This document shows, in pieces, positions 13,028-31,101 of a stretch of 64,000 nucleotides of DNA; the first letter of the stretch is position 1, and the number at the start of each line of letters is the position of its first letter. Under the pieces are notes generated by a model. The model was not told the origin of the DNA, made no database searches, and was given only the letters and a program-made list of their open reading frames with translations. Where the stretch lies: assembly GCA_019744775.1 (NCBI GenBank), contig JAIETZ010000011.1:1-64000 (forward strand), written 5' to 3'. Source of the stretch: Candidatus Obscuribacterales bacterium. GTDB lineage: Bacteria; Cyanobacteriota; Vampirovibrionia; Obscuribacterales; Obscuribacteraceae. The translations under genes and the position numbers were made by a program.

Positions 13028-13480
13028 TTAGGGGCTAAGACGCAAAAATTGGGCGGGAGTTGCCTTGCGGGTGAAAATTTCAGGAAATTGTAATCTCTGT
13101 AGCAGTAATGATTGAGAGTAATGATTGAGAGTAATGATCTCGGACTGCAGACTTAAACCGGCTGACTCCACGTTCGCAATCGCTTTGGCAATTTCTGCCC
13201 TAGACATATCCTTTCCACGCTTGTTGTCTTTATAGACTAAGAATAAGCCCGGGTATCTCTTTGAGGCATTTACATATTCTTGAGCTAATAACAAAAAGTC
13301 ACGACAGTTCGACGTCAAAATAATTCTCTTTTTCTTGATTGCAAACTCGAAGATCTCTTTGTCAGACTTCGAAGCCAAACCCGCGTCATTAACCGTGAGG
13401 ACGTCATGTCCGTCCTTCGTAAGCAGAATAACTAATTGGCGACTTTGTGAGTCTTCATCGAGAAGAAGTTTTAGGGTCAA
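13028..13480 (-). CDS. DUF5615/Mut7-C-like PIN-type toxin candidate
   Basis: A 150-residue protein. The N-terminal LKLLLDEDSQSRQLVILLTKDGHDV, then RIILTSNCRDFLLLA, is the signature of DUF5615 (PIN-like, Mut7-C-related). In that fold acidic residues (Asp8, Glu9, Asp10) bind metal for RNA cleavage. Its start overlaps the end of the upstream DUF433-like gene by 26 bp, the usual layout of such toxin-antitoxin pairs. The tail (QSLLLQRLQFPEIFTRK) is longer than usual. Upstream of its stop, at 13105-13135, the DNA repeats AATGATTGAGAGT three times in frame (repeated Leu-Asn-His-Tyr-Ser), a small tandem duplication. Confidence 0.65.
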   Translation of the reverse strand: MTLKLLLDEDSQSRQLVILLTKDGHDVLTVNDAGLASKSDKEIFEFAIKKKRIILTSNCRDFLLLAQEYVNASKRYPGLFLVYKDNKRGKDMSRAEIAKAIANVESAGLSLQSEIITLNHYSQSLLLQRLQFPEIFTRKATPAQFLRLSP

Positions 13481-14007: not shown

Positions 14008-14913
14008 CTACTCATATTCAGTAGTCAAGAAACCATTATTTCTTGCTCCTTCTGGTCTGGAATAGAAGACACTTAGGGCTCCCTGCATGGCTTTCCTAAC
14101 TGCGTCGCGTGTTAGTCGGGTGTAGACCGCGGTCGCCTGCAATGACTTGTGCCCCAACGCTTGTCCGATGACAGTCGGACTCACACCCATAATGGCCATG
14201 TAGCTACCCATAGTTCGGCGAAGATCGTGAATTCTGAGGTTTTGAATCTCGGCTCGTTTCAAGATGCGGGCCCAAGCAAATCTCGGATGACGGAATGGTT
14301 TGTCCGCACGTCTTGGGCTCGGGAATACCCAATCGTTGCTTCTATTTGATTTTCGCTTCGCCAGTAACTGCATCGCTTCTTCAATTAGGGTGACGAATTG
14401 TGTTTCACCATTTTTTGTATCAGAAATTTTCCAAAGTCCTAATTGAAAATCAATTTGATCCCATCGCATGGTGAGCACATTTGTTCTTCTTGCACCGGTG
14501 AAAATGCACATCCAAAAGAAATCTCGCATAGTGTCATTGGGTTCTGCGTTAATAGCTTTGGCTAGTCTTTCCAATTCGTCGCCCGGTTGCACAAATCTAT
14601 CGCGCGATTTCATCTTGTAGCGATCGATACCGATACATGGATTTGGTCCACAAAAGTATTCACGCTTAATTCCCCAATTGATGACCGCTCTCATCGTGTC
14701 ATGGCAGCGATTAGCACAGTACCTACCGCTTCCCGCTGCAAGCTCATCTACCCAGTCTTGGACCTCGATACGTCGAATAGAATTCAACGGAGCGTTAGTC
14801 CATCGCTTGAAGTGCAGATTGAAAGTGTCTTGCGTGTCGCGCCAGCGTTTTGTGTGATGCTTAGCGTACTTTTCTATGTAGAGATCGAAAAGCCGCCCGT
14901 AAGTAATGTCCAT
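14008..14913 (-). CDS. Tyrosine-type site-specific integrase
   Basis: A 301-residue phage/island integrase. A SAM-like core-binding domain (residues 1-95: TYGRLFDLYIEKYAKHH) is followed by a catalytic domain. The catalytic set is visible: Arg in FTGARRTN (about 141), Lys in the strand TKNGETQFV (about 168), HxxR in IHDLRRTM (about 227), His in ALGHKS (about 254) and Tyr in AVYTRL (about 262). The N-terminal arm-binding DUF4102-like domain of many island integrases is absent; the ATG at 14913 has AGGGGG upstream, so the short form is probably genuine. It lies about 850 bp from tRNA-Val and is the only integrase in the window. Confidence 0.9.
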   Translation of the reverse strand: MDITYGRLFDLYIEKYAKHHTKRWRDTQDTFNLHFKRWTNAPLNSIRRIEVQDWVDELAAGSGRYCANRCHDTMRAVINWGIKREYFCGPNPCIGIDRYKMKSRDRFVQPGDELERLAKAINAEPNDTMRDFFWMCIFTGARRTNVLTMRWDQIDFQLGLWKISDTKNGETQFVTLIEEAMQLLAKRKSNRSNDWVFPSPRRADKPFRHPRFAWARILKRAEIQNLRIHDLRRTMGSYMAIMGVSPTVIGQALGHKSLQATAVYTRLTRDAVRKAMQGALSVFYSRPEGARNNGFLTTEYE

Positions 14914-15076
14914 GCCGCGCACCCCCTTTACCTATAGACGGAATTGGAGGCAAAAAGTTCAATTGCACAGAATTGGCAAGAGGTTAATTGTGACGATACG
15001 CTACCAAAAGAGGATTAGACCGTCTTATCTTGTAATGCTTCTGCAACTCGATGGATGGCAATGGTTCGTCGTATTG

Positions 15077-17926: not shown

Positions 17927-18281
17927 GAAGGACGGACTTACCACATCCACGATTCCCATCCCGGTTAAACGAGCCCTGCGCAAGCTTGGGCAAGACATCC
18001 GGGATGCCCGTCTGCGCCGCCGAATACCGACCGAGATAATGGCAGAACGAGCTTCAATCAGTAGAACCACTCTATACAAAATAGAGAAAGGTGATGCAAA
18101 TGTATCAATGGGCACATACGCAACTATCTTATTCGTGCTGGGAATGATTGACCAAGTCAGCCATCTTGCAGATGCAAATGTAGATGCAGTCGGGCGGCAG
18201 CTTGAAGAAGAACGATTGCCGAAACGCATTCGGTTATCGCGCCGCAAGCCTGTCAAACCCGATGCCAAAGGCGCAAGCTGA
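17925..18281 (+). CDS. hipB: HipB-like antitoxin (XRE family)
   Basis: A 118-residue DNA-binding protein. The helix-turn-helix spans about residues 22-75: LGQDIRDARLRRRIPTEIMA, then RASISRTTLYKIEKGDANVS and GTYATILFVLGM. The basic C-terminal tail (RIRLSRRKPVKPDAKGAS) is in line with HipB relatives that use a tail to contact HipA. The ATG at 17925 is preferred over an upstream GTG at 17916. Its stop overlaps the hipA start by one base (TGATG), the usual coupling in this operon. It should neutralise HipA and repress its own promoter. Confidence 0.85.
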   Translation: MKDGLTTSTIPIPVKRALRKLGQDIRDARLRRRIPTEIMAERASISRTTLYKIEKGDANVSMGTYATILFVLGMIDQVSHLADANVDAVGRQLEEERLPKRIRLSRRKPVKPDAKGAS

Positions 18282-19549
18282 TGGAGACGGAATGCCTAGT
18301 CTATGTCGATTTGTCGGGCAAGGCTTATTTAGCCGGAAGACTGTGGGCGCGCATGCGCAAGGATAAAGAAAGCGCAACCTTTGAGTACGACAAAGAGTGG
18401 CTAAAAAATCCAGTGCGATTTTCGTTAGAACCAGCACTTGCACTTGGTCCTGGTCCTTTCCATACAGTCAACACCCCTCTCTTTGGTGCCCTTGGTGATT
18501 CAGCACCAGATCGCTGGGGGCGCATGTTGATGCGTCGCGCCGAGAGGCACCGCGCTAGACGTGAAGGACAAACAGCAAGAACTTTGAAAGAGATCGACTA
18601 TTTACTGATGGTTGACGATGAAGCACGCCAGGGAGCATTGCGATTTGCTATAGATGAAAACGGCCCCTTCCTGGCAGAAGGCGTGCACAATAAAATACCG
18701 CCGCTCATAGAGCTGCCGCGATTATTGACAGCAACTGAGCATGTACTAAGTGACAAAGAATCAGATGAAGATTTGCGCCTGCTTTTAGCACCAGGTTCTT
18801 CTCTAGGCGGCGCACGGCCGAAAGCTTCTGTGCGGGATCGCGACGGACAGCTTGCCTTTGCTAAATTTCCAAACAAGGAAGATGAATACAATACAGTCGC
18901 ATGGGAAGCAGTAGCACTTAAACTTGCAGGCAATGCGCGGATTGAAGTGCCGAATTGGCGACTTGAATCCATTGGCAAAAAAACGGTACTGCTTTTAAGA
19001 CGCTTTGACCGCGCGGATAAAACACGCATACCTTTCTTGTCAGCTATGAGTATGGTAAATGCAAAAGACAATGAGCAGCGCAGTTATTTGGAATTAGTAG
19101 ATGCGCTGCGTCAATATGGCGCAGCAGCGAACAATGATATCCGCATGCTCTGGCGCCGTATCGTATTTAGTATTCTGATTTCCAATACCGACGACCACTT
19201 GCGCAATCATGGATTTCTTTACACTGGTACTGCCGGCTGGCGTCTTTCGCCCGCCTATGATCTCAATCCCGTGCCGGTAGATATCCGCCCACGAATTTTA
19301 ACTACAGCCATAGACCTAGATGACAGCACTGCATCTCTCGATTTAGCTCTTTCTGTGGCCGGATACTTTGACTTGCCTTCGGGCGATGCCTTAGAAATAG
19401 CCGCAGAAGTTGGTGCAGCAGTGAGCAAATGGCGGCGTGTGGCTGCCGATTTAGGTTTGTTCGCGAAGGAAATTGATCGCATGGCGTCGGCCTTTGAACA
19501 CGAGGACCTTGCCCTTGCTTGCAAAGCCAAGAAAAGACGCGCACTTTAA
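18281..19549 (+). CDS. hipA: HipA-like serine/threonine kinase toxin
   Basis: A 422-residue, full-length HipA. It has an N-terminal subdomain (residues 1-100), then PGSSLGGARPKASV (about 173, nucleotide-binding loop with the autophosphorylation-type Ser), LAFAKFPNKED and LLLRRFDR. The catalytic loop SNTDDHLRNHGFL lies near 300 and LSPAYDLNP near 325, carrying the metal-binding Asp. All kinase residues are intact, so it is probably active. HipA toxins phosphorylate aminoacyl-tRNA synthetases such as GltX and stop growth; the target here is not known. It is coupled to hipB. A tRNA-Val-like hairpin follows four bases after the stop. Confidence 0.9.
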   Translation: METECLVYVDLSGKAYLAGRLWARMRKDKESATFEYDKEWLKNPVRFSLEPALALGPGPFHTVNTPLFGALGDSAPDRWGRMLMRRAERHRARREGQTARTLKEIDYLLMVDDEARQGALRFAIDENGPFLAEGVHNKIPPLIELPRLLTATEHVLSDKESDEDLRLLLAPGSSLGGARPKASVRDRDGQLAFAKFPNKEDEYNTVAWEAVALKLAGNARIEVPNWRLESIGKKTVLLLRRFDRADKTRIPFLSAMSMVNAKDNEQRSYLELVDALRQYGAAANNDIRMLWRRIVFSILISNTDDHLRNHGFLYTGTAGWRLSPAYDLNPVPVDIRPRILTTAIDLDDSTASLDLALSVAGYFDLPSGDALEIAAEVGAAVSKWRRVAADLGLFAKEIDRMASAFEHEDLALACKAKKRRAL

Positions 19550-22421: not shown

Positions 22422-23651
22422 TCAGCGGCTTTTCTTCTTGTGCGTCTTTGTCTTTACCTCTGCCGCACTTTGTGTGTCAATCAGGCGATCTTGTAGCAAT
22501 TGCTGTTCTCGCCTGAGTTCTTGGACAAGTTGTTCTTCTGTCGGCAAATAGAGCATGTATCTGGAAGCAAACAGTTGCTTGCTTTCCTTCAACACAGAGT
22601 ATTTGGCAACAGCTTCGTTTTTCTGAGCGCAAAGGACCAGTCCAATTGTCGGATTATCACCTTTGACTTTATGTAAATCCTCATACATTCGGACATAGCC
22701 ATCCATTTGCCCGATGTCCTGATGAGTCAGCTTGCCTATTTTGAGATCAATGAGTACAAAACACTTAAGCAGAATGTTGTAAAAGACCAGATCAACATAA
22801 AAATCTTCGTCGTCAAATTGCAGTCGCTGCTGGCGAGCGACAAAAGCAAATCCTTTGCCTAACTCAAGCAAAAACGATTGCAGATTATCAATTATGGCTT
22901 GTTCGAGGTCCGACTCATGCAATTGCGGATTGTCACGCAAATTGAGAAACTCAAGTACTGTGGGCGATTTGAGTACGTCTTCTGCCGACAGTTGTTGTTT
23001 GGCACGGCGCTTATTTTGCAGCATGCCTTTTTTGTCTTTGCTGGCAAGCAAGCGCTCATAATACGAGGAATTAATTTGCCTCTCTAATTCGCGGACACTC
23101 CAACCGCAAGTCACAGATTCTTCTTCATAAAAGTCTCGTGCGTTTTCTTTTTCTACTCGCATTAATGCCCTATAGTGAGACCAACTAAGGCATGGATGAA
23201 AACCATGATTCAAAAAGCTACACGGCGTGTAGCTTTTTTGCTCTTTGGACAATTCGCTACCCAGTGGGTAGCTTTTTCTGGCATTTGACAATTCGTCACA
23301 CAACGTGTGACCTATCTCACGAATTCTATTTTTATAGAGCAAATAGAACTGGCGAAAATTTCGTAAATTTGGACTAGAAAAACCTTGTCCATACCGCTCT
23401 GCTAGTCTTTTGGCCAAATCCTCGATAATTGTCTTGCCATATCCTGCTCTTGTCTCCCCTGCCTGCAATTCCTGCACAATTTCGCGCCCAATTAACCAGT
23501 AGGCGATAACCATGTTGCTGTTAACAACGCGCACCACATTGTTTCTTGCTTGCTCGAGAATGGAGACAACGCGGTCGAATAACTTTCCATTACCTGGATG
23601 TGTCATCTTGGCTGATTTGTTTGCATGATTGGCTGCCAATTTCTTTTTCAT
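22422..23651 (-). CDS. YhcG/DUF1016-type PDDEXK nuclease, with repeat insertion
   Basis: A 409-residue protein of the YhcG family. The N-terminal DUF1016 domain (about 20-190) has VVRVVNSNMVIAYWLIGREI, YGKTIIEDLAKRLAERYGQG and LSWSHYRALMRVE. The C-terminal PDDEXK domain (about 240-380) has DEDFYVDLVFYN and CFVLIDLKIGKL with Asp, Asp and Lys in place. Such proteins are found with type I restriction systems. Between RQFYLLYKN and LSWSHY there is an insertion made of three 13-residue repeats encoded by 39-bp units with palindromic cores (23212-23311). The frame stays open across it. Confidence 0.85.
   Translation of the reverse strand: MKKKLAANHANKSAKMTHPGNGKLFDRVVSILEQARNNVVRVVNSNMVIAYWLIGREIVQELQAGETRAGYGKTIIEDLAKRLAERYGQGFSSPNLRNFRQFYLLYKNRIREIGHTLCDELSNARKSYPLGSELSKEQKSYTPCSFLNHGFHPCLSWSHYRALMRVEKENARDFYEEESVTCGWSVRELERQINSSYYERLLASKDKKGMLQNKRRAKQQLSAEDVLKSPTVLEFLNLRDNPQLHESDLEQAIIDNLQSFLLELGKGFAFVARQQRLQFDDEDFYVDLVFYNILLKCFVLIDLKIGKLTHQDIGQMDGYVRMYEDLHKVKGDNPTIGLVLCAQKNEAVAKYSVLKESKQLFASRYMLYLPTEEQLVQELRREQQLLQDRLIDTQSAAEVKTKTHKKKSR
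23212..23311. repeat. Three tandem 39-bp units with covarying 17-bp palindromes, inside a CDS
   Basis: Palindrome cores start at 23217, 23256 and 23295, exactly 39 bp apart. Their arms are GCTACAC/GTGTAGC, GCTACCC/GGGTAGC and GTCACAC/GTGTGAC. The arms differ between units but pair within each unit. The first is extended to 27 bp by runs of A and T (23212-23238). The spacers share GACAATTCG. The array is translated in frame in the YhcG-like gene as SYTPCSF, SYPLGSE and HTLCDE with linkers. Confidence 0.85.
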
Positions 23652-23835: not shown

Positions 23836-24318
23836 ATGGACGAAGCCACATCGGATGAGAAACAAATTCCAGACATGCTGGAGAAAGCCATTGCCATTGC
23901 TGTCGAAGCGCACAAGGGACAGAAAGACAAGATGGGCACTCCTTACGTGCTGCACCCATTGAGAATGATGTGCCGCATGACCACGCCTTATGAAATGATG
24001 GCCGCCGTCTTACATGACGTCGTCGAAGACACAAGCGTGACTCTTGCACAGCTTAAAACCGAAGGCATTCCTGAAGTCGTGCTTGATGCTATCGACCGCT
24101 TAAGCCGGCGAGAAGGCGAAAGCTATGATGAGTTTGTGCAGCGCATTCTACCGTCGCCATTAGCCTGCCGCGTAAAACTTGCCGATCTGGAAGACAACAT
24201 GGATGTTAGGCGAATTAAGCCACCCATATCCGAGAAGGATCTGGAGCGCTTGAACAAGTACCGGCATTATTGGGACATTGTCCGTGGTGAAGGAAAACCA
24301 GAAAACGCTTCGGTTTGA
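23836..24318 (+). CDS. HD-domain phosphohydrolase (SpoT/MESH-like)
   Basis: A 160-residue protein made only of the HD domain of the RelA/SpoT hydrolase type: AVEAHKGQKDKMGTPYVLHP, AAVLHDVVEDTSVTLAQL (HD and ED motifs) and CRVKLADLEDN. It has a good Shine-Dalgarno (GGAGG) before ATG 23836. No synthetase or TGS domain is present, so it is a small alarmone-type hydrolase by analogy (ppGpp 3'-pyrophosphohydrolase). Several families with this fold act on other nucleotides. It stands alone, and the tRNA fragment follows two bases after its stop. Confidence 0.8.
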   Translation: MDEATSDEKQIPDMLEKAIAIAVEAHKGQKDKMGTPYVLHPLRMMCRMTTPYEMMAAVLHDVVEDTSVTLAQLKTEGIPEVVLDAIDRLSRREGESYDEFVQRILPSPLACRVKLADLEDNMDVRRIKPPISEKDLERLNKYRHYWDIVRGEGKPENASV

Positions 24319-24802: not shown

Positions 24803-26263
24803 CTATTTTACTAACGCTGGTTGCTTTTTGCTTTTCCTGAGTGGGTGAGATTTGTCCTTTAGCTCATTTTGGGTTGTTTGCTGGAATCGCGCAACCAATT
24901 TGGAAGCTGGCTCGTCCGCGGGATCTTGCGAGACGAGCTCGCCGCTAAAAGCTTTGCAAAGTATGGATTGCTCCAAGTTGTCCATTTTAATTTTATTTTC
25001 GAGAACTACCTTGTTCAATACTTCTATACCTTCCAAGACAAGGCGTGCTACTCGCGCTATCTCTACTTGTTCTTTTATGCTAGGGAGTGGAATAACAGCA
25101 CTCTCAATATCCAGTTGGCTTATGTGAGGAAGCTGCGTGCCGGTCTCTTGGCTTGACACATGATTAATAAACAGCGGGCTCTGCAGATAGAGAAACAAGT
25201 ACTCTGCTACGAGAAGTCGTTCTAATATCATAAATCTGCCAACACGCTGAAGTAGGAGGGCTGGAATGTCACTGGCAGTAATCTTAGCGATCTTCAATCC
25301 AGCAGAGACCAACGGACGATCCATCGCAATGACAATATCCCCTTGCGTCAATCGGTAGTCGTCAAATTCAACTCCTCTTTCCTCTGCAATGAATACACTG
25401 TCGTCCCATCGAGTACTACCCGGGACAATATTTGTGCCACGCAAAAGTCTTACACCAGCTTTCTCAAACCATTGACTTTTGAAAGCATAGCCTGGTTGTA
25501 GTGATGCGACTTGTCCGACAAATGGACTGATCCATCCATCGGGAAGAACTAGCGTTTCCCCTGCTGTTGCCACTTTTTTCTGGCGGACTTTCTTTGCATC
25601 CCAAGTCCCTAAGCTCGCTAGGGTTAAGGGCGATCTATCCCGCGTAACTTCTCTCCAACGCTCAGTCAAATCTCCAGCCACAGCGGCAGCAATTATTGAG
25701 CGACGTAGGACATCCAACAAACTCGCCATGTTTATAAATCGGGTGCGGCAATCGTCAACGCGGGCGAGCAGAGCGTCAAGTTTGTCGGCAATGCGTTTCT
25801 GTTCTTTGAGTGGGGCGAGGATAAATGGAGCATTCTTACCGGCTTCTGTGCCCAGGCGTGGCATGTTGATACCATGACTTACGTCCTTTACGTACGAAAG
25901 AAAAGCCGGGTGCTTAAGCCAATAAAACAGGTATCTTTCATGTACCAAGCCATTTGTTTTCAATGGCACAATTTCTGTTGAGCAGAATCCTGATTCAGGG
26001 GCGATAAGTACTTTATTCAGATATGGGCGCAATTTACCATAAAGCACATCACCCTTTTGAAATGCGTTCTTCGTACTTTTTGATTTCCGCTGGGCAAATG
26101 ATAAGTACTGAAGAATTTTTGAACTGTCTTTTTCAATATCTTCAAGTTCTAAAACCCAAGCTTCATCGGGAATATGACTCGGCTCTACCTTTGTTGTTTG
26201 TCCGTATTTAATAATATCGCCAAGCTTAAGTTCGATCCAGCCATTCGGGATTTCCCCGCTCAT
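24803..26263 (-). CDS. hsdS: Type I restriction specificity subunit HsdS
   Basis: A 486-residue subunit that determines the split recognition sequence. There are two target-recognition domains: the first begins GWIELKLGDIIKYG (about 8-21), the second about residues 235-390. Two conserved helical spacers frame them, PLKEQKRIADKLDALLARVD (about 151-170) and PLPSIKEQVEIARVARLVLE (about 395-414). It starts within the hsdM stop (four-base overlap), so translation is coupled. The C-terminal tail KDKSHPLRKSKKQP is basic. The target site cannot be read from sequence. Confidence 0.93.
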   Translation of the reverse strand: MSGEIPNGWIELKLGDIIKYGQTTKVEPSHIPDEAWVLELEDIEKDSSKILQYLSFAQRKSKSTKNAFQKGDVLYGKLRPYLNKVLIAPESGFCSTEIVPLKTNGLVHERYLFYWLKHPAFLSYVKDVSHGINMPRLGTEAGKNAPFILAPLKEQKRIADKLDALLARVDDCRTRFINMASLLDVLRRSIIAAAVAGDLTERWREVTRDRSPLTLASLGTWDAKKVRQKKVATAGETLVLPDGWISPFVGQVASLQPGYAFKSQWFEKAGVRLLRGTNIVPGSTRWDDSVFIAEERGVEFDDYRLTQGDIVIAMDRPLVSAGLKIAKITASDIPALLLQRVGRFMILERLLVAEYLFLYLQSPLFINHVSSQETGTQLPHISQLDIESAVIPLPSIKEQVEIARVARLVLEGIEVLNKVVLENKIKMDNLEQSILCKAFSGELVSQDPADEPASKLVARFQQTTQNELKDKSHPLRKSKKQPALVK

Positions 26264-27720
26264 ACCTCGACCTCCTCGCCAAGTTCAGCAAGAATTGCGC
26301 GGAGTTCGGACGTAGCTGCATCGAGTTCGCCAAGCGCTAGTTGCACAATTTCTGCCGGTTCGGGCTGGTCTTCAGCATCTCCAATGCTCTCGTCTCGAAG
26401 CCAACTTATGTCTAGGCTGTCACTGCGCTGCTCCGCGATCCATTGGCGGTCAAATTTGCGAAAGCGTCCAGTGTCACCCGTGTCAACCCGTTTAGCCAAT
26501 GCGGCAGAGTCGCCGAGGGGGTTACCACCAAATGCGGTGCGGAACTCGGCGAAGTGCTTCTTTGTTAGCAGGGTCCGTTTGCCGAATTGCGGCATATTGA
26601 CACGTAAATCATAAATCCAAACTTCTTTGGTGTTGTTTTTGTCTGTTGTGCCGCGTGTAAAAAACAATACATTTGTTTTTACGCCCTGTGCATAGAAGAT
26701 GCCGGTAGGCAAGCGCAAAATTGTATGCAGGTTGCATTTGTCCATCAAGTCTTGGCGAATTTGTTTACCGATGTTGCCTTCAAATAGTACGTTGTCCGGG
26801 AGAACAACAGCAGCGCGTCCATCGGGGGCAAGTCCACGATATATATGTTGTAAAAATGCGAGTTGTTTATTGCTGGTAGAGAATGTGAAGTCATCTCGGT
26901 CAGGTAGTCCGCCGCCTTTCTTTGTGCCGAATGGAGGGTTTGTTAAAATAAGCGTTGCTTTGGGTAGCGCCTTGCCCTGTGGACTCAGTGTGTCACCATA
27001 TCGGATACCGGCGTTTTCTCCGTCTGCATCGCTGTCAATGCCGTGAAGCATCAAGTTCATCAATGCGAGCCGGTGTGTGTCTTGTACGTGCTCCATGCCA
27101 TAAAACGTTTTGGTATAGTATTTTTTCTGTTGATTCTCCTTCCAAGAGGCAATTTTTTCGTGCTCTTGAATGTAGTGGTGGGCGGCAATCAGAAAACCAC
27201 CGGTCCCGGCGGCGGGATCTTGAATCACATCCGCTGAAGTTGGCTTCATCACTTGCACCATGGCATCGATTAATGGGCGCGGAGTAAAATATTGTCCGGC
27301 GCCTGATTTTTTCTCATTGGCGTTCTTTTCGAGCAAGCCTTCATATAGGTCGCCCAATCCTTCTTTCTTAGCGTCATACCAATCGAGTCCATCTATTTCA
27401 CTGACAAGCGTGGATAGTGTGACTGGCTTCTTGATGAAGGTTGCGCTGTTAGCAAATATTTCCTGAACAATGCCGCGCCCATCGCGGGCAAGCTTACGGA
27501 GCAGGTCTTCGTAAAAGCGCAGACGATCCGGCGCCGACTTCTTGACGAGATCAGCCCAGCGGTAGCCAGCAGGGAGCAGTCCTTCTTTCTCGGTTTCCTG
27601 CGCCATCTTCAGAAACAGCAGGTATGTAAGTTCTGTCACATACTGGTGATACGTAACGCCATCATCTTTGAGGACGTTACACAGATTCCAAAGTTTGGCT
27701 ACGATATCTTGCGTGGTCAT
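26260..27720 (-). CDS. hsdM: Type I restriction methyltransferase subunit HsdM
   Basis: A 486-residue N6-adenine methyltransferase of the type I complex. The HsdM N-terminal domain (LWNLCNVLKDDGVTYHQYVT, about 11-30) is followed by the SAM-binding motif DPAAGTGGFLIAA (about 170) and the catalytic NPPFGTKKGG (about 261). The C-terminal part ends in LAELGEEVEV. Nothing is missing. The gene begins 21 bp after hsdR and overlaps hsdS by 4 bp. Confidence 0.95.
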   Translation of the reverse strand: MTTQDIVAKLWNLCNVLKDDGVTYHQYVTELTYLLFLKMAQETEKEGLLPAGYRWADLVKKSAPDRLRFYEDLLRKLARDGRGIVQEIFANSATFIKKPVTLSTLVSEIDGLDWYDAKKEGLGDLYEGLLEKNANEKKSGAGQYFTPRPLIDAMVQVMKPTSADVIQDPAAGTGGFLIAAHHYIQEHEKIASWKENQQKKYYTKTFYGMEHVQDTHRLALMNLMLHGIDSDADGENAGIRYGDTLSPQGKALPKATLILTNPPFGTKKGGGLPDRDDFTFSTSNKQLAFLQHIYRGLAPDGRAAVVLPDNVLFEGNIGKQIRQDLMDKCNLHTILRLPTGIFYAQGVKTNVLFFTRGTTDKNNTKEVWIYDLRVNMPQFGKRTLLTKKHFAEFRTAFGGNPLGDSAALAKRVDTGDTGRFRKFDRQWIAEQRSDSLDISWLRDESIGDAEDQPEPAEIVQLALGELDAATSELRAILAELGEEVEV

Positions 27721-27741
27721 TGCTTGATTTCCAATCTCCTC

Positions 27742-30700
27742 TTAAGATGCCTCTGGGCTCCAAATCAGTTCATTAAAGTGGTGCAAAATTTCTTCCAGTT
27801 CACCGTCAAACTTTTTGTTAATGGCGTTGAATCCACCGGCTTCCCGTTTGAACATCTGATCCGGCGAGTCCATCACATCTTTGTCCACCACCACATTTGC
27901 CTTCGTTTGCGCTGCAATCTTCTCCAGCCATTGCTTCTGCGGCACCGTCCAGCTTCTTGATGCAAGTATTTTGCGGAGCGCGAATTCAACACGGTCTCGC
28001 CATGGGACAAGTGGATCACCAAGCGCAGCCTGGCGAATATATCCAATGATACCAGCTGCAATGTCCTTGTTCGACTTTTCAGCCCATGCACTCTGCAAAC
28101 TTCTTTCATCAAAGCCCTCGTCACTGAGCGCCAACGCCAGGGCTTTCAAATCTTTTCTGGTTAAATCACGCGGGCGCTGCAAAACCGCCTGCATCGCCGG
28201 CAAAGTATTGCCGTTGGTCTTGATGAAGTGTGCAAACTCATCAAGGTAATCTTCCGGCTTCTGATTGTGCCCGTAGCCGCGATTAACGTAGAGTAGTGTG
28301 TCGGAATGCTCGGAAACCAACAAAGATGGCACACTTTCATTTCGATTGGCGCCGTCCAAAATCTTCCCGATATTGGCATGGTTACAGAACCACTGATTAA
28401 GCTGGATTACAGGGATGCGACGCAGCTCTTTGATAAAGGCTTCCACAGACTGCCCTGCAGCAACTTCAAACTCTGCTATTGGTTTTTCTCTCATGTGCCG
28501 CTTCTTGCGAATAAGTTTTACTAAAAACTGATCACGCGCCAGCTCTAAGTGCGTAACATCTTTTATGGTTTGCAATTCCCGAGCAAGTTCTGTAAAGCTC
28601 ATTTTGGGATTGACCACTACTGGCTTCATATCGGTCACATCTTGCAAGGCTTTGTAGATGCCTACAGCGTCGTAGATTCGAAATACTTCCTTGCCGATTT
28701 CATCACATCGCCTAGTTGCCCTGCCCAGCATCTGTTCGTAGAGTATGCGGCTGGTCACAGTGCGAATGAAAACGAGATTGGTAATTGGCGGCACATCAAT
28801 GCCTGTAGTCAGCAGATCCACAGTTACAGCAACCTGGGGTAGAGACTCATTTTTGAATTGACGAATCAGCTTTAACGGAGCATGGGCTTGACCTGTAATC
28901 TTGACGACAGCATCGTCATCCACCTCACCATACCGCGTTTTCAATTCCTCTTTCAAAATTGTCACAACCAAGTCCGCATGCGCATCGGTTGCACAAAAGA
29001 TAACCGTCTTTTCTTTCGACGGCACATCAATCTGCCGCGCCAATTCTCTGCACACAACACGATTGAAATTGCTGGTAATTACTTTACGGTTGAAATCCTC
29101 GACCTCAAGGGCAATATCATCCGAAGTGGTGAAGTGCTCAATTTTATTCTCGCCTTTCTTCAGAAGTTTAACTTTTTCGCCGGCCTTCCACTTGATTCCA
29201 TTTTCGGAAAGTTCTGTCACTATAGTGATTGGCGGCTCGTGATCTATAAGCACTTCATCGAGGACAGCTTCGCGATATGTGTAGGAAAACACTGGCTCCC
29301 CGAAAATCTCAACCGTGTGTAGTGCCGGTGTTGCAGTCAAGCCAATTTTCACCGCGTCAAAATATTCGATCACACGACGGTAATTTGAAATATAGTCATT
29401 TTGATCGCGAAAATATAGTTCGGTTCCGGAAAGATCTCGGTCGAGCAAATATCCGCGATGGCACTCGTCGATAATGATGCAATCATATTCGTCTACAGGC
29501 GGTGGCGAATCCGAGTAAAATACTCGCCTTATCAGTCCTTGAATCGTTGCGATGTGCACACTTGTATCTTTGTCCGCTTTTCTATCATCAATCTCCTTAA
29601 CGCCGAATATGTTCGAAAAGTTTTGCAAGTTTTCCATGCGTGTAGAATCAAAGTCACGAGCCGCTTGCTCTCCTAGTGCCGAACGGTCCACTACAAATAG
29701 CACGCGCTTGAACATTTTCGATTTCAGCAAGCGATACATCAGCGCAATCGCAGTTTTGGTCTTACCTGTGCCGGTGGCCATAGCTAGCAGGCAAATGCGC
29801 GTGCCATTGACCAAGGCATTCTCTACCGCCAGCACCGCATTTTGTTGATAGCCACGCAGGGTGAATCCATAATCAAACTTTTCTTCTTCCAGATTCTTCT
29901 CCGCTTCTCCGCGATCTCGACGAAGTAAGTCTTGCAGACCTTGTGGGCTATACCAGGAACCAATGGCGCGCGCATGATTCGTGGCGCGGCGCATATCGAC
30001 AAACCACAGTCCGCTTTCTGTCTCATGCTGTTTCAAGTATTGGCGCCCATTTGTGGAAAATCCGAATGGGACACGAAACCGCCCATCAGCCCAGGGTGAA
30101 CCTTCCGGTATTTGCATTTCCGGCGTAAATTTGAACTCACCGCTGTATCGTTTTGCTTGTTTTATGTCTTCAGCAACATTCTTGATGCCTTTCTTGGCTT
30201 CAACTGTGGCCACTGGAGTCAATCCGACGAATAAAACGTAGTCTGCACGCCCAGTCTCGGTAGGCCATTCAGCAATAGCCATGTTTCGCCCCTTCTCTGG
30301 GCGAGTGCCCAGGGCATAGCGAAGCATCGTAGTATCAGCTTCCCATCCAGCATCGCGTAGCTGCTGGTCTATCAATGTGCGCGTGGCAGCTTCGTCCATG
30401 TCCCACCACTTGACTGATGCAGCTTTAGACAGCTGTTCGCTTGTCTTTACCGCTTGAGCAGGATGAGCTTGCGCCTTCGCTTGCAGCGCTTCTAGTTGTG
30501 CTGTGATTTCTTCGTTTTTTCTGTCCTTTTCCTGCGCCAGCTTCCCCAGAGCTTCCTTCTCTTCTCGTGTTTGGACAGCTTCCTTGATGGCTTTATCTCG
30601 CTCTACCTGCAGCCTCTCAAGCTCTTCAGTGACAATTGTGCTTGCATCTGCAGGCGGTGCCGGCGGAATGAATGGCCCGCTCTTGAAATTTATATCGCGT

Positions 30701-31101
30701 GTGGCTCGGTGATACCATACCGCAAGCTGCCGTGCCATCTTCAGCGCGCTTAGCGAATCGCCGGCGCTTCCGTGTAAATTGTGGTTCGCTTGATTGCCGA
30801 TTTTACGAAGGTCGTGAAAGACCCGAGCGACGTCCGCATTTAGATGGCCAGCTGCATCAAGGCGCCGAAGCAAGTCCAATTGGCTTTCTTGGGTGCTAGT
30901 GTACATGCCGACGTTGGCAGCAACCGTCTGCGCAAGCAATTCTGCAAATTGGCGAATTTTGATGAGGCAGGTATTTGGGTCATCGCTAAAATACTGCTCC
31001 GCCCGCATTCCTAGCTTCGCCAAATCTGGCGCATAGGCTGCCAAAATCCAGAAGTTACTGGATTGCGAATCTGAGGATCTACCGCTGGGATTGCTGGACA
31101 T
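27742..31101 (-). CDS. hsdR: Type I restriction endonuclease subunit HsdR, EcoEI-type (IB)
   Basis: A 1119-residue motor and nuclease. It has an N-terminal DUF4145-type domain (about 20-125) and a coiled coil (about 155-210). The nuclease core TGRADYVLF with VATVEAKKG lies near 285-300. The SF2 helicase has Walker A MATGTGKTKTAI (about 445), Walker B IIDECHRG (about 544) and later VFIRTVTSRILYEQMLGRAT. An EcoEI_R_C-type end (about 950-1119) completes it. All motifs look intact, so the system is probably active. Gene order R-M-S on one strand. An AATATACTATTAGG stretch upstream (around 31131) may hold the -10 box. Confidence 0.95.
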   Translation of the reverse strand: MSSNPSGRSSDSQSSNFWILAAYAPDLAKLGMRAEQYFSDDPNTCLIKIRQFAELLAQTVAANVGMYTSTQESQLDLLRRLDAAGHLNADVARVFHDLRKIGNQANHNLHGSAGDSLSALKMARQLAVWYHRATRDINFKSGPFIPPAPPADASTIVTEELERLQVERDKAIKEAVQTREEKEALGKLAQEKDRKNEEITAQLEALQAKAQAHPAQAVKTSEQLSKAASVKWWDMDEAATRTLIDQQLRDAGWEADTTMLRYALGTRPEKGRNMAIAEWPTETGRADYVLFVGLTPVATVEAKKGIKNVAEDIKQAKRYSGEFKFTPEMQIPEGSPWADGRFRVPFGFSTNGRQYLKQHETESGLWFVDMRRATNHARAIGSWYSPQGLQDLLRRDRGEAEKNLEEEKFDYGFTLRGYQQNAVLAVENALVNGTRICLLAMATGTGKTKTAIALMYRLLKSKMFKRVLFVVDRSALGEQAARDFDSTRMENLQNFSNIFGVKEIDDRKADKDTSVHIATIQGLIRRVFYSDSPPPVDEYDCIIIDECHRGYLLDRDLSGTELYFRDQNDYISNYRRVIEYFDAVKIGLTATPALHTVEIFGEPVFSYTYREAVLDEVLIDHEPPITIVTELSENGIKWKAGEKVKLLKKGENKIEHFTTSDDIALEVEDFNRKVITSNFNRVVCRELARQIDVPSKEKTVIFCATDAHADLVVTILKEELKTRYGEVDDDAVVKITGQAHAPLKLIRQFKNESLPQVAVTVDLLTTGIDVPPITNLVFIRTVTSRILYEQMLGRATRRCDEIGKEVFRIYDAVGIYKALQDVTDMKPVVVNPKMSFTELARELQTIKDVTHLELARDQFLVKLIRKKRHMREKPIAEFEVAAGQSVEAFIKELRRIPVIQLNQWFCNHANIGKILDGANRNESVPSLLVSEHSDTLLYVNRGYGHNQKPEDYLDEFAHFIKTNGNTLPAMQAVLQRPRDLTRKDLKALALALSDEGFDERSLQSAWAEKSNKDIAAGIIGYIRQAALGDPLVPWRDRVEFALRKILASRSWTVPQKQWLEKIAAQTKANVVVDKDVMDSPDQMFKREAGGFNAINKKFDGELEEILHHFNELIWSPEAS

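Follow-up and report, generated by a model that had tools for sequence, protein, structure and literature searches.

The palindromes in the linker of the DUF1016/YhcG nuclease gene studied here belong to a family-wide element. A ~27-bp palindrome of the form RATT-N9-N-N9-AATY lies at the homologous linker place in about 90% of the ~300 DUF1016 genes sampled, including yhcG of Escherichia coli K-12, and is, judging from sequence, very probably the cognate binding site of the protein that each gene encodes. The sequence-level support comprises constraint at the DNA level, dyad pairing, covariation between residues and bases, a predicted ParB-like fold, and a near-exclusive location in the own gene in the genomes tested. 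We regard the overall explanation, i.e., a two-fold symmetric double-stranded DNA site read by the ParB/Noc-like region of the encoded protein, which likely binds its own gene, as probable.

To our knowledge, DUF1016/YhcG proteins form a very common bacterial nuclease family without known function. The window, i.e., the whole 64-kb stretch of DNA that was analyzed, encodes a 409-aa member with Pfam scores of 143.5 bits for DUF1016_N (cut-off 32.8) and 188.8 bits for YhcG_C (cut-off 32.5). A paralogue in the same genome (on contig C12) is 72% identical to it. The YhcG nuclease domain has been assigned to the PD-(D/E)XK group, with the DUF1016 N-domain treated as unknown (PMC1189080). In PADLOC, the family is the defence candidate system PDC-S02, which the window protein matches with an E-value of 3.7e-143. 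The features of the gene, all on the minus strand, are as follows:

22422..23651, minus strand: DUF1016/YhcG nuclease gene, 409-aa open reading frame (Pfam E-values 5.8e-42 for DUF1016_N and 7.3e-56 for YhcG_C)
23337..23378, minus strand: codons for residues 92-105, predicted to form a ParB-like recognition helix, in which P94 covaries with arm position 7, R97 with 8, and N98 with 5
23295..23311, minus strand: palindrome unit 1, GTCACAC-GTT-GTGTGAC, encoding GHTLCD
23256..23272, minus strand: palindrome unit 2, GCTACCC-ACT-GGGTAGC, encoding SYPLGS
23217..23233, minus strand: core of palindrome unit 3, GCTACAC-GCC-GTGTAGC, within a full 27-bp palindrome at 23212..23238, AAAAAGCTACACG-C-CGTGTAGCTTTTT, encoding SYTPCS plus flanks
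23157..23189, minus strand: codons of LSWSHYRALMR, residues 155-165, in which S158 covaries with arm position 3 and R161 with 4; the equivalent of G201-H-A-R204 in ParB
23079..23105, minus strand: codons of the GWSVRELER region, residues 183-191, in which V186 covaries with arm position 3 and R187 with 2
22515..22979, minus strand: codons of the YhcG_C PD-(D/E)XK nuclease domain (PF06250; fold according to PMC1189080), residues 225-379

Several other elements lie in the surroundings. Complete-looking type I restriction-modification genes, hsdS, hsdM, and hsdR, adjoin the gene (24803-31101), with a small HD-domain open reading frame (23836-24318) in between. A HipA-like gene (18281-19549) and a phage-type integrase gene (14008-14922) are also near, and a perfect 13-bp tandem repeat, AGTAATGATTGAG, is present in 2.7 copies at 13104-13138.

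Inspection of the sequence bore out the preliminary description of three in-frame 17-bp palindromes 39 bp apart: all three are perfect and the spacing is exact, and unit 3 proved longer than first stated, at 27 bp. We shuffled the linker synonymously, keeping the protein and drawing codons according to the gene's own usage. Of 20,000 such shuffles, 17,471 contained no palindrome, 2,476 contained one, 53 contained two, and none contained three. The whole window holds 14 perfect 17-mer palindromes of the same type, three of them in this linker. A different 17-bp palindrome, GGCGCATGCAATGCGCC / GGCGCATTGCATGCGCC, has five copies in the window (5817, 11394, 48346, 52197, and 57297) and is perhaps a genome-wide palindromic repeat.

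We extended the shuffling analysis to linkers from 185 DUF1016 genes (75 long and 110 short) and to 117 held-out genes. Palindrome scores were 10.9 in the long linkers compared to 5.2 in their synonymous shuffles (95% of genes at p ≤ 0.05), 9.7 compared to 4.7 in the short linkers (85% at p ≤ 0.05), and 9.9 compared to 4.9 in the held-out genes (90% significant); about 10-15% of DUF1016 genes had no significant palindrome in this comparison. The linker accounts for 10% of gene length, yet it contains a gene's best palindrome in 128 of the 147 full genes. One codon phase is used nearly throughout and another in a few short-linker genes; a subgroup (L029, L079, and L082; linker NLKNMRQFYLTYPEFDTQCVAN) has its palindrome in codon phase 4, e.g., AATTCGATACGCAGTGCGTAGCGAATT. 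DUF1016/YhcG proteins scored above the Pfam cut-off in 92 of 247 sampled genomes of one phylum (phylum-level groupings being those of the database used), and at least part of yhcG was found in 4417 of 5426 complete E. coli genomes. K-12 yhcG carries three units, one of which is AAGATTTGGCAGAC-GCT-GTCTGCCAAATCTT. Comparable palindromes occur in one Wolbachia phage gene and one Collinsella gene, and an Ilyobacter DUF1016 gene has none at the threshold used. Relatives on viral contigs numbered eight with an alignment query and zero with single-protein queries.

When the palindromes are aligned on their centres, a common anatomy emerges, i.e., RATT, a variable stretch of about nine bases, a single base at the centre, a complementary stretch of about nine bases, and AATY, with conserved ends enclosing a variable but paired interior. 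Entropy in the inner arms is 1.1-1.8 bits per position, yet positions 2-8 are paired in 88-97% of cases. At +9 to +11, the Glu, Gln, or Lys codon ends in A in 244 of 244 instances (60% expected from the same genes), and at -12 to -10 the Ile codon is ATT in 167 of 180 (46% expected). These fixed third positions point to selection at the level of DNA. The proposal that the arms change together through paired substitutions, and that the nucleic acid rather than the protein alone is under selection, thus holds strongly across the family; had homologues lost the pairing, the palindromes would have been deemed accidental, but their arms vary and still pair.

We next considered what reads the arms. 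For a first set of 188 palindromes (effective number 130), we related protein columns to arm positions by mutual information, with average product correction (APC) and sequence weighting and without a tree. The covarying residues fall in three segments, 92-98, 156-165, and 186-187, and the top pairs are S158 with position 3, R161 with 4, P94 with 7, V186 with 3, and N98 with 5. An independent set comprised 117 genes, drawn mainly from one other phylum and from viral contigs. Here, the leading five first-set pairs, counted by distinct residue, took ranks 1-5 of 1716; R97 with position 8 ranked seventh and R187 with position 2 ranked ninth. Two first-set pairs, R165 with position 6 and S92 with position 6, did not replicate among these 117 genes. 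In the pooled data, Arg94 accompanies G at -7 (100 of 106), Arg161 accompanies C at -4, i.e., G on the opposite strand (86 of 91), Arg187 accompanies C at -2 (163 of 168), and Glu97 accompanies C at -8 (26 of 28); so far as sequences can tell, this code is chemically sensible. Among protein pairs less than 35% identical, the probability of sharing the base at -7 is 0.78 when residue 94 is the same and 0.25 when it differs. This covariation favors the suggestion in the preliminary description that the nuclease itself may recognize the site.

The covarying segments can be placed on a predicted fold. The structure model of the N-domain of the window protein is of moderate quality (pLDDT 74), and the full-length model is poor in the nuclease half. 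Every one of the 12 best VIA-align matches to this N-domain model is a ParB, Noc, or Spo0J protein (Z 7.4-10.0; next 5.3). In a plain Foldseek search, ParB and Noc proteins likewise fill the top 11 places, with E-values that are not significant (0.27 at best). We therefore describe the N-terminal half of DUF1016 proteins as a predicted ParB/Noc-like helix-turn-helix region. In ParB, helices alpha4, alpha6, and alpha8 contact parS, through residues including S172, N178, G201, and R204 (PMC7383237); matched by eye, the motif S158-H-Y-R161 corresponds to the DNA-contacting G201-H-A-R204. A Pfam scan of the window protein returned DUF1016_N and YhcG_C only and no ParB CTPase domain, and for this reason we propose an action like that of the ParB DNA-binding domain and do not class the protein as a ParB.

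Two other readings of the palindromes were weighed against a protein-bound DNA site. One is that they act as hairpins of RNA or single-stranded DNA, serving mRNA stability, translational pausing, or cruciform formation, with the pairing itself under selection. Strong pairing despite highly variable arms and perfect stems of 13-20 bp would suit such hairpins. However, an RNA stem would tolerate G.U, and a hairpin loop cannot form the central ±1 pair. Among stem mismatches, G.T and A.C are depleted about equally; at position 11, T.G is possible in 31% of synonymous choices and was never observed. Acceptance of G.U, as expected of a structured RNA, is therefore not seen, and because G.T is tolerated no more than A.C, the element is better described as a DNA site than as an RNA hairpin. 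At the central ±1 pair, which would serve no purpose in a loop, the bases are complementary in 61% of cases compared to 34% expected, and specific protein residues predict the base at each position. Also in favor of hairpins is a published comparison of the nuclease domain to Holliday junction resolvases, enzymes of four-way junctions (PMC1189080). On balance, the test of G.T against A.C and the residue-base covariation led us to reject the RNA hairpin, and hairpins in general appear unlikely. Of the earlier claim that a fold of the DNA or RNA is kept, the part concerning pairing at the nucleic acid level stands, whereas an RNA or single-stranded DNA fold does not, given the G.T depletion and arms that are explained by protein residues. 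The other reading takes the linker as a hinge or repeat of the protein, with palindromes as a by-product of the peptide and its codon bias, or as the outcome when imperfect palindromes are repaired by template switching. The motifs do recur in the peptide, and template switching can change both arms together. Nevertheless, synonymous recoding destroys the palindromes, the third positions are fixed (A in all 244 cases), and mutation alone does not predict covariation between residues and bases; the shuffles led us to reject the peptide-only explanation, and we give this reading as a whole almost no credence.

The palindromes were also located in whole genomes. The window's own genome (4.1 Mb) contains five sites with the core motif, all within its two DUF1016 genes, while the reversed control gave none. 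Family-specific patterns were searched in 15 further genomes, where AATT-flanked exact matches lie in DUF1016 genes or, once, in an apparent DUF1016 remnant. This remnant (genome G010, contig C42, L375 around 1500) retains a perfect, AATT-ended palindrome. Near the gene, beyond the array itself, 28 cognate copies were counted, compared to an average of 6.2 with mismatched cognates. Most were extra units inside the gene; a few lie directly beside it, e.g., about 30 bp past E. coli yhcG, such that the intragenic place is not absolute. Two groups of additional matches were set aside. In G620, three core matches fall outside DUF1016 genes; none has AATT flanks, and all three have a different flank, GGAATGCA, in common. 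In G479, three extra CAGAC-NNN-GTCTG matches also lack AATT, and the control gave two matches. Without the AATT flanks, and given the G479 control, we judged these extras to be chance or other repeats. The G620 loci (L365, L367, and L368), with the GGAATGCA-type flank ahead of GTGACGC-NNN-GCGTCAC, look like a separate dispersed repeat.

These counts speak to a further alternative, a mobile palindromic repeat inserted in frame, as is known of Rickettsia palindromic elements. The repeated in-frame units and the copies adjoining the gene are in its favor. Against it, the homologous place and codon phase are constant across the family, the arms follow the encoded protein, and the AATT-flanked matches in the 15 genomes are confined to DUF1016 genes and one remnant. 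Such a repeat would be expected to have copies in unrelated genes or intergenic regions, but the core motif in the own genome was found only in the two DUF1016 genes. The genome-wide pattern counts thus led us to reject a mobile repeat, which we hold to be highly improbable, and the mobile hairpin family envisaged earlier was not borne out.

The number of units varies, as had been anticipated. In this genome there are three in the window gene compared to two in the paralogue. In E. coli there is one in O157:H7, two in another lineage (with arms that differ but pair), and three in K-12. The array has contracted out of frame in strain CAU16175, and in strain 2012C-4227 yhcG is interrupted directly behind unit 3, beside a transposase gene. 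Many further E. coli strains share a breakpoint just past the third palindrome (matches end at yhcG base 406; in L165, 4001-4406, next to a transposase gene). The yhcG array thus looks, from these sequences, as if it were a hotspot of insertion or breakage.

We propose that each palindrome would serve as a double-stranded, two-fold symmetric site for the encoded protein, whose ParB/Noc-like region, probably dimeric, would read the arms via the recognition helix (92-98) and later helices (158-161 and 186-187). Physical binding and the dimer are what we infer from the covariation and predicted fold. The site sits in linker codons between those of the first and second proposed recognition elements, such that target and reader are passed on jointly and can change in step, and the linker accommodates one to three or more copies. 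The nuclease most likely binds its own gene and limits its own expression, through an intragenic operator or roadblock, or may stay parked there. Autoregulation is the most ordinary use of such a site, and we put the chance that it is the main one at about even. Less probably, the site is bound but serves a use other than repression, i.e., the nuclease marks or cuts copies of the gene (self-targeting, allele conversion, or parking until activated). A PD-(D/E)XK domain joined to a site-specific domain, a site nearly confined to the gene, a reader and site forming one heritable cassette, and the listing of the family as a PADLOC defence candidate are consistent with such a use; however, an intact site would expose the own gene to cutting unless protected. 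A broader and similarly tentative view would have DUF1016 proteins as a large class of site-specific nucleases, each with its address written into the gene that encodes it, like a lock-and-key cassette. Seated on that gene, the nuclease might use the address to sense copies of the gene or incoming DNA, or to act on them, through self-marking, allele conversion, or the triggering of defence; orthogonal addresses would arise through coupled changes of reader and site.

We found no paper on yhcG or DUF1016 that describes palindromes or a target site. If the proposed cognate site is correct, the DNA target of thousands of DUF1016/YhcG proteins could be read directly from their own genes, and the family would thus be testable at once. 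A code of DNA recognition in a ParB-like fold could then draw on hundreds of natural reader-site pairs, and the family would be a clear case in which selection for a DNA site overrides codon and amino acid choice within a protein.

The window gene is a member of the family of E. coli YhcG (PF06250 plus PF17761; PADLOC PDC-S02), and its arrangement can be compared to several known systems. lacO2 and galOI are intragenic operators; they resemble the arrangement inferred here in that a repressor site lies within coding sequence, but they are single cases in the genes of other proteins, whereas in DUF1016 genes the proposed reader is the product of the gene itself, throughout the family. Rickettsia palindromic elements are likewise in-frame palindromes within genes, but they are mobile and scattered over unrelated genes, whereas the DUF1016 palindromes occupy one place per gene and co-evolve with the protein. 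In Bacillus subtilis, the parB gene, spo0J, itself contains one parS site. The likeness to ParB-parS and Noc-NBS (PMC7383237) consists in a palindromic site read by a helix-turn-helix and later helices, as proposed here from covariation, with equivalent contact positions, matched by motif, and with specificity that changes by few residues. In contrast to those systems, a nuclease domain is attached, and the window protein has no Pfam match to a ParB CTPase domain. The DUF1016 site also has a greater length (~27 bp, ending in AATT), lies within the gene throughout the family, and has arms far more diverse than those of parS.
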